Part shown: one piece after another, positions 7,807 through 11,816 of the stretch
How positions within the stretch are numbered: position 1 is the stretch's first letter
How the letters are laid out: the number at the start of each line of letters is the position of its first letter
Assembly: GCF_000014945.1 (NCBI RefSeq)
Contig: NC_008553.1
Span: forward strand, 744,001-808,000
Source: Methanothrix thermoacetophila PT
GTDB taxonomy: Archaea; Halobacteriota; Methanosarcinia; Methanotrichales; Methanotrichaceae
Direction of reading: 5' to 3'
DNA: 64,000 bases
Translations under genes and position numbers: made by a program
The notes under the pieces: generated by a model
The model's input: the letters and a program-made list of their open reading frames with translations, nothing else
Database searches by the model: none
What the model was told of the DNA's origin: nothing

Positions 7807-10800
7807 TCAGATCTCCAGCTGTTCCATCTCTCCCTCCAGCCTGTGCAGCTCCTTTGTGTCAAGAGAGAGAGGATCGATATGCACGAGCATCACAGCTCCT
7901 CTCAGCGAGACCTCATCCCTCTGCGACTGTATAAACCTCAGCACGGTCTCATAGTTGCTCTGCGTTATCAGGTATCCAATACCCTCCAGGAGTATCACAG
8001 GGTACTCGGTCCTCCTCAGAAAATCTGATATCATTGAGCTGAGCCTCGGGAAGTTCGTTGGATCCACGGATCTGAACTTCCCCTCCTCTGTCTTCTGTGT
8101 GAGCCATATGACTGTTTCAGGTGAGATCCCGTACTTCTCACGGAGGCTCTCAGGGTTGTACCTGGATATGCACAACCCCTCTAACCCAGCGTGTACCAGC
8201 TCGCTGAATATCTCGAAGCACCGGACCGGCTTGTCCTCCTCGATCGCATATGTCGTTCCTGGATTCAGTATCAGCTCATAGATGCTGAAGCCGTACTTTT
8301 CGATGAGCGGCCTCAATACTTTCACAGAATCGAAGTCGGGATCAACCCTGCTCACGGAGGTGCAGATGCGTCTTATTATCGTGAAGAAATGCCTTCTCGT
8401 GATCTTGCACCGCGTATCTATCTCGATCAATCCCCTGCCGCGCATGTCGGGATCGCATGATGCGCCCTCTGCGACCTCTGATTGTTCGCTGAGAACGGAA
8501 TTTGCGATGTCCATTGCAGCCTCTGGAGATCTCGTCCCGCCGATTATGGCAAGTATAAAAACCCTGAGGAGATAAGACGGCAGAGGGCCTGCCGTGAATA
8601 TCAGACCCCTTACTTCCACAGGCTCCGCCTCAGATACAGCACAGAACCCCATGAAATCAGACGAATCCGCCAGGATGAGTCTGGTGTTCGTTCTGTGGAC
8701 TAGATTCTCCAGCTGGTTGACAAAATCCAGCAGATCCTCCGCAGGTATCACATTCTCATTGACAAGAACAAGATGCTCGAGATTGTCCAGAAGTATTATA
8801 CCCTTCCTGCAGGTCTCGACGAATGTCTTTATCGTGAGGAAGAGCAGTGGAAGATTTGTGGGAGATATCTGCTTCTCACCACCCTCTCTCTTTTGGTTAA
8901 GCCATATGATCGGCGTCTTCCTGAGACTGTACCTGCTTCTCACATCCTCCGGCGGTCTGCGTGTGACACACAGCCCCTCAAATCCATGCGTTACCTGATC
9001 CGTGAACACCTCATAGGCATTCTGAGCTGAGAAGTAGATCTTTCCAGGCTCGAGACTGAATTTCTGCGGAGCTGCTTCCACCCTCTCAACAACTGGCCTG
9101 GGTGTGATATGCTCCTCAACTATTATCCTTGTTGTTGATGTGCCAAGCGAGCCTGTGAGAACCCTCTCCACATGATCCCAGAGGTCCAGGAGGTGCCTGG
9201 CATCGACTTTATCTCTTGAGACTCCAAGCCTCGCAAGATCCGCATCTATCAGCATCCTGGCCTTCTCCGCTCCTATATACCTGGCGAGCATCGACTCAAC
9301 CTCGTCGACCGTACCCAGTCTTATGGCAGGTCTCTCGATCGGAACTGCTTCCCTTCTCTCGCTGAATATCTCAACGAACCCCTCTGCCTGGACCCTCTCC
9401 TCAGGCGTCGGGCTGCTCATCAGGGAGAATAGCACATACAGGCTCGCATTTGCGAAGATGCTCCAGAACACCGAGTTAGTCCAGGGATCCAGATCCACAC
9501 CAAAGAGGTTAGTCGGAGTGAGCGCAGATATCCCGAAGGGTCCTGATTCGAGAATGGACTGCGGAAGCCAGCCGGCCTTGACAACTGTGGGGATGAGTGC
9601 AGTGTAGAGCCAGAGCACAAACCCTGCGCTCATGCCTGCGATCGCCCCCTCCCTGCTGCCCTTTCTCCAGTAAAGGCCCCCGATCACCGCTGGCCCCATC
9701 TGGCTTGCTGCCACGAATGATATCAAACCTATATCCACGAGGCTCTGGTACTCGACGACCCTGGAGTAAAGGTATCCGAGCATCACCACAAGAATGATGT
9801 TGATGCGCTTAGCGTTGAGCAGAAGCCCGGGGAGACCTCTTCCCCTCCCCAAGTACCTCATGAGGTACGGCAGCTCCAGCTCGTTCAGCATCATGTGGCC
9901 AACTGCAACACCGTCCACCAGCACCATCGCAGTGGCAGCAGACGCTCCTCCTATGAACACGAGCACTGCGAGAGGTATGTTGCCCGCGGAGTACGGGATC
10001 TCTATCACGAACATATCTTTCACGCCAGGAACTCCCAGAAGCAGGCCTGCTCCGGCTATCGCTGGAACGAAAAGATTAATCAGAAGGAGGTAAAGCGGGA
10101 AGAGCCACATCGCCTTTCGTATATGCGATTCATCAGCATTCTCAACAACCATGACGTGGAACTGTCTGGGGAGAAGAAACGCAGCGAAGAAGGATATCAG
10201 GGTGAGCGAGAACCAGGATGTGTAATCTATGTTTATGAGATGAGAGAAATTCTCTGTTGAGAGGACGCGGTCTATTATCTCAGAGTATCCGTTGAATATC
10301 CCCCATGTTATGTAAACACCTGCCACAACAAATGCGGCCAGCTTGACAATTGATTCAAACGCAACCGCTGCCACCAAACCCTCGTGCCGCTCCATCGGAT
10401 CCAGGTGGCGCGCTCCGAATATTATGGCGAATACAGCGAGCAGGACCGCCACGGAGAGCTTTGTACCCCAGAATGTATCTCCTCCGCTTATTATCTGTAT
10501 TGAGCTTGATATCGCGATCAACTGGAGTGCGACATACGGTATGACTACCATCATGCTCACAATGGTCACTATCGCGCCTATTGCATAGCTTCTGCCGTAC
10601 CTGAAGCTTATGAAATCGCTGATAGACGTGAGTCGATACTCCTTTGATATGCGGACTATCTTGCGTATCATCACCCATCCGAGGAGCATTGCAAGTGTTG
10701 GTCCGATGTATATCGTGAGAAAACCGAGGCCGCTTGTTGCTGCCCTTCCAATACTTCCATAGAATGTCCATGCTGTACAGTATACTGCAAGGGATAAAGC

Positions 10801-10926
10801 ATAGACATATGGATTAGAGACGATGCTCCTGCCCGCCTGCCTCTGCCTGTCGGCGTAATATGCTATGATGCTCAGGAGGAGGAGGTACGTAAGTATGATG
10901 GAGAACGCGAAGAGAGGTGCGCTCAA
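7807..10926 (-). CDS. SLC5-STAC membrane sensor with two C-terminal DUF835 domains
   Basis: A 1039-residue fusion protein. Residues ~1-505 are a sodium/solute-symporter (SLC5) domain with about a dozen membrane helices. Its CTAWTFYGSIGRAATSGLGF segment is the one found in bacterial CbrA-type sensor kinases. Residues ~535-605 look like a STAC domain (VERVLTGSLGTSTTRIIVEE). Two DUF835 domains follow: ~622-755 (LEPGKIYFS, GFEGLCVTRRPPEDVR, IIWLNQ, IILLDNLEHL) and ~885-1035 (LEGLCISRYNPESLREKYG, VIWLTQ, VILLEGIGYLI). No histidine kinase, PAS or response-regulator domain is present. The TTG at 10926 has GGAGGGG upstream and overlaps the stop of the small membrane gene. It probably senses or transports a small solute and signals through DUF835; the ligand is unknown. 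Confidence 0.85.
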   Translation of the reverse strand: MSAPLFAFSIILTYLLLLSIIAYYADRQRQAGRSIVSNPYVYALSLAVYCTAWTFYGSIGRAATSGLGFLTIYIGPTLAMLLGWVMIRKIVRISKEYRLTSISDFISFRYGRSYAIGAIVTIVSMMVVIPYVALQLIAISSSIQIISGGDTFWGTKLSVAVLLAVFAIIFGARHLDPMERHEGLVAAVAFESIVKLAAFVVAGVYITWGIFNGYSEIIDRVLSTENFSHLINIDYTSWFSLTLISFFAAFLLPRQFHVMVVENADESHIRKAMWLFPLYLLLINLFVPAIAGAGLLLGVPGVKDMFVIEIPYSAGNIPLAVLVFIGGASAATAMVLVDGVAVGHMMLNELELPYLMRYLGRGRGLPGLLLNAKRINIILVVMLGYLYSRVVEYQSLVDIGLISFVAASQMGPAVIGGLYWRKGSREGAIAGMSAGFVLWLYTALIPTVVKAGWLPQSILESGPFGISALTPTNLFGVDLDPWTNSVFWSIFANASLYVLFSLMSSPTPEERVQAEGFVEIFSERREAVPIERPAIRLGTVDEVESMLARYIGAEKARMLIDADLARLGVSRDKVDARHLLDLWDHVERVLTGSLGTSTTRIIVEEHITPRPVVERVEAAPQKFSLEPGKIYFSAQNAYEVFTDQVTHGFEGLCVTRRPPEDVRSRYSLRKTPIIWLNQKREGGEKQISPTNLPLLFLTIKTFVETCRKGIILLDNLEHLVLVNENVIPAEDLLDFVNQLENLVHRTNTRLILADSSDFMGFCAVSEAEPVEVRGLIFTAGPLPSYLLRVFILAIIGGTRSPEAAMDIANSVLSEQSEVAEGASCDPDMRGRGLIEIDTRCKITRRHFFTIIRRICTSVSRVDPDFDSVKVLRPLIEKYGFSIYELILNPGTTYAIEEDKPVRCFEIFSELVHAGLEGLCISRYNPESLREKYGISPETVIWLTQKTEEGKFRSVDPTNFPRLSSMISDFLRRTEYPVILLEGIGYLITQSNYETVLRFIQSQRDEVSLRGAVMLVHIDPLSLDTKELHRLEGEMEQLEI

Positions 10927-11135
10927 CTGGACCCCCTCCTGTCGAATATGTATGCCCAGAGTATCACAAGCATCCATACCAACATAATGTAAACCAGACG
11001 CTCGGGGAATCCCAATATCCTCTCACTTGGGCTGGGTATCGAGAGGATCGGCCAGTTGAAGAGAGCCACAGCTAGTATAAAGGCCAGCACCCACAGTTCG
11101 ATCTGCTCGAATAGTCCTTTCGTTGATATGGTCAT
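10923..11135 (-). CDS. Small two-helix membrane protein, partner of the SLC5 sensor
   Basis: A 70-residue protein with two hydrophobic helices, ELWVLAFILAVALFNWPIL and RLVYIMLVWMLVILWAYIF, joined by a short SIPSPSERILGFPE loop and ending in a basic tail (DRRGSS). Small membrane proteins of this layout commonly precede SLC5-type genes in bacteria and may stabilise the transporter-like domain. Its TGA overlaps the TTG of the sensor gene, and it starts 3 nt after the stop of the KaiC-like gene, so all three are translated together. The complex is inferred from this coupling. Confidence 0.75.
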   Translation of the reverse strand: MTISTKGLFEQIELWVLAFILAVALFNWPILSIPSPSERILGFPERLVYIMLVWMLVILWAYIFDRRGSS

Positions 11136-11138
11136 GGC

Positions 11139-11816
11139 CTACAGTCCCGGGTAAACCGTGATGCCCTTCGAGGTTATATCGAGAGCATGCTTCCCAGCGC
11201 GGTGTGATGTGCCCATCATCTTGAGTATCTCCAGGGATCTCCTTCTGGTCCTGCCTATCTCCATGTTGTAGAGTATTATCACCCCATCTGTTATGCAGGC
11301 AATATCCTGAGGATATGGAGTGCTCGATCTGGACTCGGCTGTTATCAGAACGGCGCTGTCCCAGCTCTTCATAATGGCACCCAGTCTGAAGAGAAATCTG
11401 TTGTAGCCGTCCTTCAGCACCGTCCTGATGAACGGGAGGGAGTCTATGACTATTCTTCTTGGCATGAAGCTCCTGACCTCGCGATCCATCAGTTCCAGTA
11501 TCTCATCCTCATCTCCCTTCTCGATCACCTCACCGAGATCGATGTATCTTATAAGAGTGCCGAAGTGCCTGTGATCCACGAACTCGTATGTGGAGATGAA
11601 CCTGAGCATCAGCTCGGCAGGCTCGCTGAGGGCCATGAAGTATATCCCGCGCTCCCCAAGCTCCGCTCCCTTGAACAGGTACTGCATGCACAGGGTTGTC
11701 TTTCCACTTCCTGTCTCTCCAGAGATAAGAACGCTGGACGGCACCGGTATCCCGCCCTCCAGCATCTCATCCAGCCCTGGGATTCCCGTGGGTATCTTCT
11801 CTATATGTGCCGTCAG
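11139..11816 (-). CDS. KaiC-like RecA-superfamily ATPase
   Basis: A single-domain ATPase of about 225 residues. The family N-terminus IEKIPTGIPGLDEMLEGGIP is followed by Walker A GETGSGKTTLCMQYL and Walker B RRIVIDSLPF. The first ATG in frame (11765) would remove the conserved IPGLDEM segment. The true start therefore lies upstream, where the only plausible codon is CTG at 11816-11814, preceded by GGAGG at 4-nt spacing. KaiC-like proteins in archaea act as nucleotide-dependent signalling switches. This one is first in an operon with a small membrane protein and the SLC5-STAC-DUF835 sensor; DUF835 and KaiC-like domains are often neighbours in archaea. The residue driving the switch is not identifiable here. 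Confidence 0.82.
   Translation of the reverse strand: MTAHIEKIPTGIPGLDEMLEGGIPVPSSVLISGETGSGKTTLCMQYLFKGAELGERGIYFMALSEPAELMLRFISTYEFVDHRHFGTLIRYIDLGEVIEKGDEDEILELMDREVRSFMPRRIVIDSLPFIRTVLKDGYNRFLFRLGAIMKSWDSAVLITAESRSSTPYPQDIACITDGVIILYNMEIGRTRRRSLEILKMMGTSHRAGKHALDITSKGITVYPGL

Follow-up and report, generated by a model that had tools for sequence, protein, structure and literature searches.

Sensors that couple an SLC5 transporter domain to a signaling output through a STAC linker are exemplified by the CbrX-CbrA system of Pseudomonas. In CbrA, the SLC5 and STAC domains are followed by PAS and histidine kinase domains, and the cryo-EM structure places a lysine (K196) in the Na2 site (PMC13022988). 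CbrX, a two-helix peptide encoded upstream in a gene that overlaps cbrA, binds the SLC5 domain and is purified together with it (PMC13022988); it has been proposed to be a translation-coupling peptide (PMC6591292). STAC-containing signaling proteins are stated to be absent from Archaea in a passage of PMC5715377 that cites Korycinski (2015), and, according to a later review, some of the kinases predicted in archaea have SSS domains (PMC7918813). Here we describe a locus of the archaeon Methanothrix thermoacetophila PT, in a stretch of 64,000 nucleotides (positions 744001-808000 of NC_008553.1, a single-contig genome of 1,879,471 bases; hereafter the window), where three genes, all on the minus strand, encode a KaiC-like ATPase, a 70-residue two-helix membrane protein and a 1039-residue SLC5-STAC-DUF835-DUF835 protein. 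An SLC5-STAC sensor of this kind is present in every Methanotrichaceae genome searched (25 of 25), against the stated absence of STAC signaling proteins from Archaea. With moderate confidence, the 1039-residue protein is interpreted as an archaeal transceptor in which a bacterial-type SLC5-STAC input would act through a tandem pseudo-KaiC output that switches KaiC-family ATPases.

The sensing half of the protein corresponds to that of CbrA. A phmmer search of the PDB sequences returned one clear match, 10ed_A (E-value 7.9e-86), co-linear over residues 11-606 and including the STAC domain; the database entry reads only 'histidine kinase', and its residue numbering matches that of the SLC5-STAC structure of P. 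putida CbrA in PMC13022988. Twelve hydrophobic peaks, together with a modeled TM2 helix of lower hydrophobicity, give the SLC5 part the 13 transmembrane (TM) helices of CbrA homologues, and the STAC domain follows the last of them, as in CbrA-type transceptors. A preliminary description of the locus had read the protein as an SLC5 domain, a STAC-like linker and two DUF835 domains, an anatomy that the co-linearity with 10ed_A, the STAC profile and Pfam DUF835 all confirm. By domain profile, the STAC segment alone finds the CbrA STAC (CbrA residues 519-589, E-value 6.5e-4), whereas Pfam SSF matches five of the 21 orthologues but not the window protein itself. K195, the counterpart of CbrA K196, is invariant in all 63 aligned sequences (21 archaeal and 42 bacterial), as are Y49, W53, F69 and F404, and most pocket residues are kept. 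The position of CbrA F248 is Ser or Ala in the aligned set (S245 in the window protein, which also has T54 where CbrA has A56), and the pocket is thus that of the bacterial SLC5-STAC family, with some departure from the histidine sensor. As first described, the protein contains no kinase, PAS or receiver domain, and neither HisKA nor HATPase was found in any of the 21 orthologues by Pfam scan.

In place of a kinase, the protein ends in two DUF835 domains (PF05763), matched by Pfam at residues 634-752 and 902-1034 (E-value 2e-55; 187 bits against a gathering cut-off of 33.1), close to the spans 622-755 and 885-1035 assigned earlier from the sequence, and DUF835 is found in 21 of 21 orthologues. 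Both copies are homologous to each other (hhalign 99.2%, E-value 1.5e-19), and the GK[ST] P-loop is missing from both. A model of the tandem (residues 600-1039), built from an alignment of the 21 orthologues, reached a pLDDT of 85.6 and a predicted template modeling score (pTM) of 0.84. When it was compared with the PDB by Foldseek, two-domain KaiC structures ranked top (E-value 3e-6), with a global template modeling score of only about 0.25, a low value explained by the simultaneous superposition of both domains. DUF835 is listed as an inactivated KaiC-like domain (PMC5847659), and NCBIfam gives a weak FlaH match for it. According to the model, the tandem folds like a double-domain KaiC (CI-CII) devoid of its P-loop and is a predicted pseudo-KaiC output. 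The view that DUF835 takes the position of the kinase thus stands, but not as an unrelated domain, since DUF835 itself has a predicted KaiC-like fold.

The small membrane protein, left uninterpreted in the preliminary description of the three-gene set, resembles CbrX in position and topology and is a conserved CbrX-like partner of the SLC5-STAC module. Its gene lies directly upstream of the sensor gene in all 25 homologous Methanotrichaceae loci, and the protein shows two hydrophobic peaks. CbrX itself is located at TM3/TM8. A profile built from the archaeal proteins only detects, in the corresponding position, an open reading frame (ORF) in 41 of the 42 bacterial SLC5-STAC loci (E-values 4e-16 to 4e-4), with four stray matches, all above 0.07, among 3573 ORFs. 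This conservation across domains of life suggests a real subunit that does more than couple translation, the role put forward for CbrX (PMC6591292). Searches of Pfam and NCBIfam gave no convincing family for these proteins; the two-helix family, with its NWP/NFP motif, accompanies SLC5-STAC genes in both Bacteria and Archaea (loci L085-L127).

The connection between DUF835 and KaiC is also visible in gene order. Among 45 DUF835 genes from 40 regions and twelve archaeal families, a KaiC gene lies within 2.5 kb in 16 cases from six families, with both genes on one strand in 15; 17 KaiC genes were counted within 2.5 kb and one in the outer flanks (p 2.9e-5, the genes not being fully independent). 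The DUF835-KaiC connection drawn in the preliminary description is thereby supported. The M. thermoacetophila genome has another DUF835-KaiC cluster, which comprises a receiver, a PAS-histidine kinase, DUF835, a PadR-like winged helix-turn-helix (wHTH) protein and a KaiC with the P-loop GxxGTLKS (L128:4365-7761; G000:C1, about 54.4-57.8 kb). Its DUF835-to-KaiC layout recurs in L164, L165 and L155, and L166 also has DUF835 beside KaiC. Separately, Methanosarcinaceae-like genomes carry between the DUF835 and KaiC genes a protein of 379-549 residues with a weak wHTH-PRTase-associated match (L129:5740-6879, L132:7175-8824), which is possibly a transcriptional output.

The KaiC gene of the operon itself encodes a clear family member (Pfam KaiC/ATPase, PF06745, E-value 1e-34, 120 bits; KaiC structures by phmmer, E-value 7e-37), with the motifs GETGSGKT (Walker A) and VIDS (Walker B) and a P-loop conserved in 13 of 13 aligned orthologues. 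Its presence is patchy. It lies upstream in 16 of the 25 family genomes, in one of which (L013) it is frameshifted, and is absent from nine (for G016, 220 bp of upstream sequence were covered). One of the nine genomes without it (G019, locus L027, upstream of 1277) retains a 17-residue C-terminal KaiC tail before the small gene (E-value 9e-5), the scar of a deletion; similar short strings (DIS.K), read by eye only, occur upstream of the small gene in L014, L017 and L023. Judged by eye on the tree, this distribution would require about four losses.

Several results weigh against signaling to KaiC through a pseudo-KaiC output. Neither DUF835 copy matched the operon KaiC significantly in profile comparison (hhalign), and the DUF835 profile found nothing among PDB sequences, which places the predicted kinship of DUF835 and KaiC at the level of the fold only; a fold search was used for this reason, and the pseudo-KaiC assignment rests on the fold and the literature. 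The full-length AlphaFold model was poor (pTM 0.46) and was not used. The small-protein profiles matched 0 PDB chains by sequence, so that kinship with CbrX is argued from position and topology. In the neighborhood survey, 29 of the 45 DUF835 genes had no KaiC gene within 2.5 kb. The operon KaiC is missing from nine of the 25 family genomes, and its orthologues were not found elsewhere in those genomes. Because these nine family members keep an intact sensor, the KaiC of the operon can be neither the obligatory nor the sole receiver, which corrects the preliminary suggestion of a pathway that signals to a RecA-fold ATPase.

These data give some weight to the strongest alternative, namely that the DUF835 pair needs no KaiC to signal or dock, but dimerizes or binds other regulators, and that the operon KaiC is an accessory or a drifting passenger. 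The genomes without KaiC conserve every domain of the sensor (SLC5, STAC and the two DUF835 copies) as well as the small protein, the catalytic Glu region of KaiC is eroded in several lineages that keep the gene, and in some families most DUF835 genes have no KaiC neighbor. However, the recurrent and mostly same-strand linkage in six families speaks against independence, the presence of a neighboring KaiC gene in several deep branches of the family suggests that the pairing is ancestral, and each of the nine family genomes inspected has at least one further strong KaiC-family gene as a possible partner. This alternative is consequently regarded as possible, though not probable.

Signaling through KaiC-family ATPases remains the best-supported mechanism among those predicted; in it, we infer ligand binding, the direction of signaling and physical contact with KaiC. 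A small solute would bind the H+-type SLC5 pocket and change the conformation of the transporter core, and the STAC domain, lying under the core as in CbrA, would relay this change. The pseudo-KaiC pair would then dock on KaiC-family ATPases and switch their state, with no phosphotransfer domain involved. Where the operon has kept its single-domain KaiC, that protein may be the receiver; where the gene was lost, another KaiC-family protein of the cell may take its place. Cultured Methanotrichaceae live on acetate, and CrbS, which with MxtR and RpuS belongs to the acetate- and pyruvate-related SLC5-STAC kinases, regulates acetate use, which makes acetate an attractive ligand. It is only a guess, because the gene context of the bacterial relatives holds no conserved acetate genes and gave no ligand. 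A bolder version, which we consider rather doubtful as a whole, is that Methanotrichaceae captured a bacterial transporter-sensor and use it to sense their key nutrient (acetate or a related carboxylate), that its membrane-anchored pseudo-KaiC pair, as an inactive ATPase subunit, joins and switches KaiC-family ATPase rings without phosphate, and that the two-helix protein is a universal structural subunit of all SLC5-STAC receptors.

Within the phylum, a sample of 393 genomes gave 14 matches at an E-value of 1e-40, all of them in Methanotrichaceae and none in the other 379. A scan of about 85,000 species ranked Methanotrichaceae first among its best 80 loci, followed by bacteria with 43-47% identity over SLC5-STAC; as it used two peptide patterns and these best 80 loci, rarer archaeal cases could be missed. 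Methanotrichaceae sequences form one clade (SH-aLRT 100), while the branch joining them to Nitrospirota is weak (SH-aLRT 50) and no donor is therefore named. The sensing half is probably a bacterial-type module that the common ancestor of Methanotrichaceae acquired in a single event, with horizontal transfer from bacteria as the simplest reading. Among the 40 complete closest bacterial relatives, 20 end in HisKA-HATPase, 19 in GAF-SpoIIE and one in GGDEF-EAL. The earlier statement that a histidine kinase normally follows the module thus holds for only half of them, 19 ending in a phosphatase instead, and the output of the module is exchangeable, DUF835 being its archaeal version. Neighboring genes of these relatives encode, among others, an AAA_33 protein, a TPR protein, a glycogen branching enzyme and an NtrC-type regulator. 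Upstream of Desulfuromonadales SLC5-STAC genes there is a protein of conserved size (523-526 residues; L085, L087, L104, about 4.1-5.7 kb), with an AAA_33 domain in L087 and L104, the two copies that were scanned.

The variety of outputs also bears on the possibility that the protein is a regulated transporter, in which KaiC and DUF835 gate SLC5 solute uptake from inside, and not an output-producing sensor. The SLC5 pocket and the H+-type lysine are intact, the SLC5 domain of CbrA transports histidine (PMC7918813; PMC13022988), and STAC has been proposed to regulate solute transport (PMC4834066). Yet classical signaling outputs dominate among the 40 close relatives, and CbrA SLC5-STAC alone gives no growth on histidine (PMC13022988), making this explanation quite unlikely. 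An ordinary fusion of unrelated neighbors or a decaying gene without signaling role, to which the lost or frameshifted KaiC of some relatives might point, is scarcely credible given an architecture intact in 25 of 25 genomes and a mean column identity of 69% over 21 sequences, with many invariant residues in all domains.

The three genes lie as first described (Table 1). Read directly from the sequence, the KaiC gene ends at 11139 and, after a gap of 3 nt, the small gene starts with ATG at 11135, and the TTGA overlap between small gene and sensor gene probably couples their translation. Regarding the KaiC start (window 11765-11816), the ATG of sister genomes (MPTGIPG) reads ATA here; the CTG at 11816, preceded by GGAGG, is a possible start that is not conserved (CGG in L006).

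Table 1. Features of the SLC5-STAC-DUF835 locus, in window coordinates.
Feature	Position	Strand	Evidence
Single-domain KaiC-like RecA-fold ATPase, Walker A GETGSGKT intact; start uncertain (CTG 11816 or ATG 11765)	11139..11816	-	Pfam, phmmer
70-residue two-helix membrane protein, CbrX-like partner of the SLC5-STAC module, NWP...FDR motif	10923..11135	-	Locus conservation, profile, hydrophobicity
TTGA overlap: small-gene stop / sensor-gene TTG start	10923..10926	-	Sequence read directly
1039-residue SLC5-STAC-DUF835-DUF835 protein	7807..10926	-	Pfam, phmmer, orthologues in 25/25 Methanotrichaceae genomes searched
SLC5 transporter domain; Lys195 at CbrA K196 position (Na2 site)	9412..10917	-	phmmer to PDB 10ed_A
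STAC four-helix linker; YIGAEKA motif where LGPxxA expected	9109..9321	-	STAC-only profile against CbrA; same alignment with full protein
First DUF835 domain, degenerate predicted KaiC-like fold	8671..9027	-	PF05763 E-value 4e-20; homology to second copy
Second DUF835 domain, degenerate predicted KaiC-like fold, without GK[ST] P-loop	7825..8223	-	PF05763 E-value 6e-36; tandem model

In all, the locus suggests that archaea have connected a bacterial nutrient sensor to a signaling network of their own, the usual signaling enzyme being replaced by two dead KaiC-like domains. No paper describing SLC5-STAC-DUF835 was found in a literature search that did not cover an mBio paper of 2017, in which a KaiC-based network is reportedly proposed as an archaea-specific signal hub, and the Methanosaeta papers checked do not mention the locus. 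Because the locus joins the structurally solved CbrA module to a KaiC-based network, the hub proposal would gain a system with a defined membrane input. With CbrX-CbrA (PDB 10ed), it shares the co-linear 13-TM SLC5 and STAC domains, the lysine of the Na2 site and a small two-helix protein encoded just upstream with a gene overlap; it differs in being archaeal, in the two pocket substitutions given above, in the KaiC gene upstream and in having tandem DUF835 instead of PAS, DHp and CA domains. The SLC5-STAC-GAF-SpoIIE and SLC5-STAC-histidine kinase proteins of Desulfuromonadales and Nitrospirota, its closest relatives among the best 80 loci, have the same pocket residues and small upstream partner, but their output is a PP2C-type phosphatase or a histidine kinase. 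CrbS/MxtR and RpuS follow the same SLC5-STAC nutrient-sensor logic with a kinase output that the window protein does not have; a swap between CrbS and CbrA has been shown to work (PMC5715377). Finally, in the DUF835/KaiC signaling of other archaea (e.g., REC-PAS-DUF835 proteins encoded beside KaiC genes), DUF835 is likewise attached to sensors and often lies beside a KaiC gene, whereas the 1039-residue protein takes its input from a membrane transporter module and has DUF835 in two copies.

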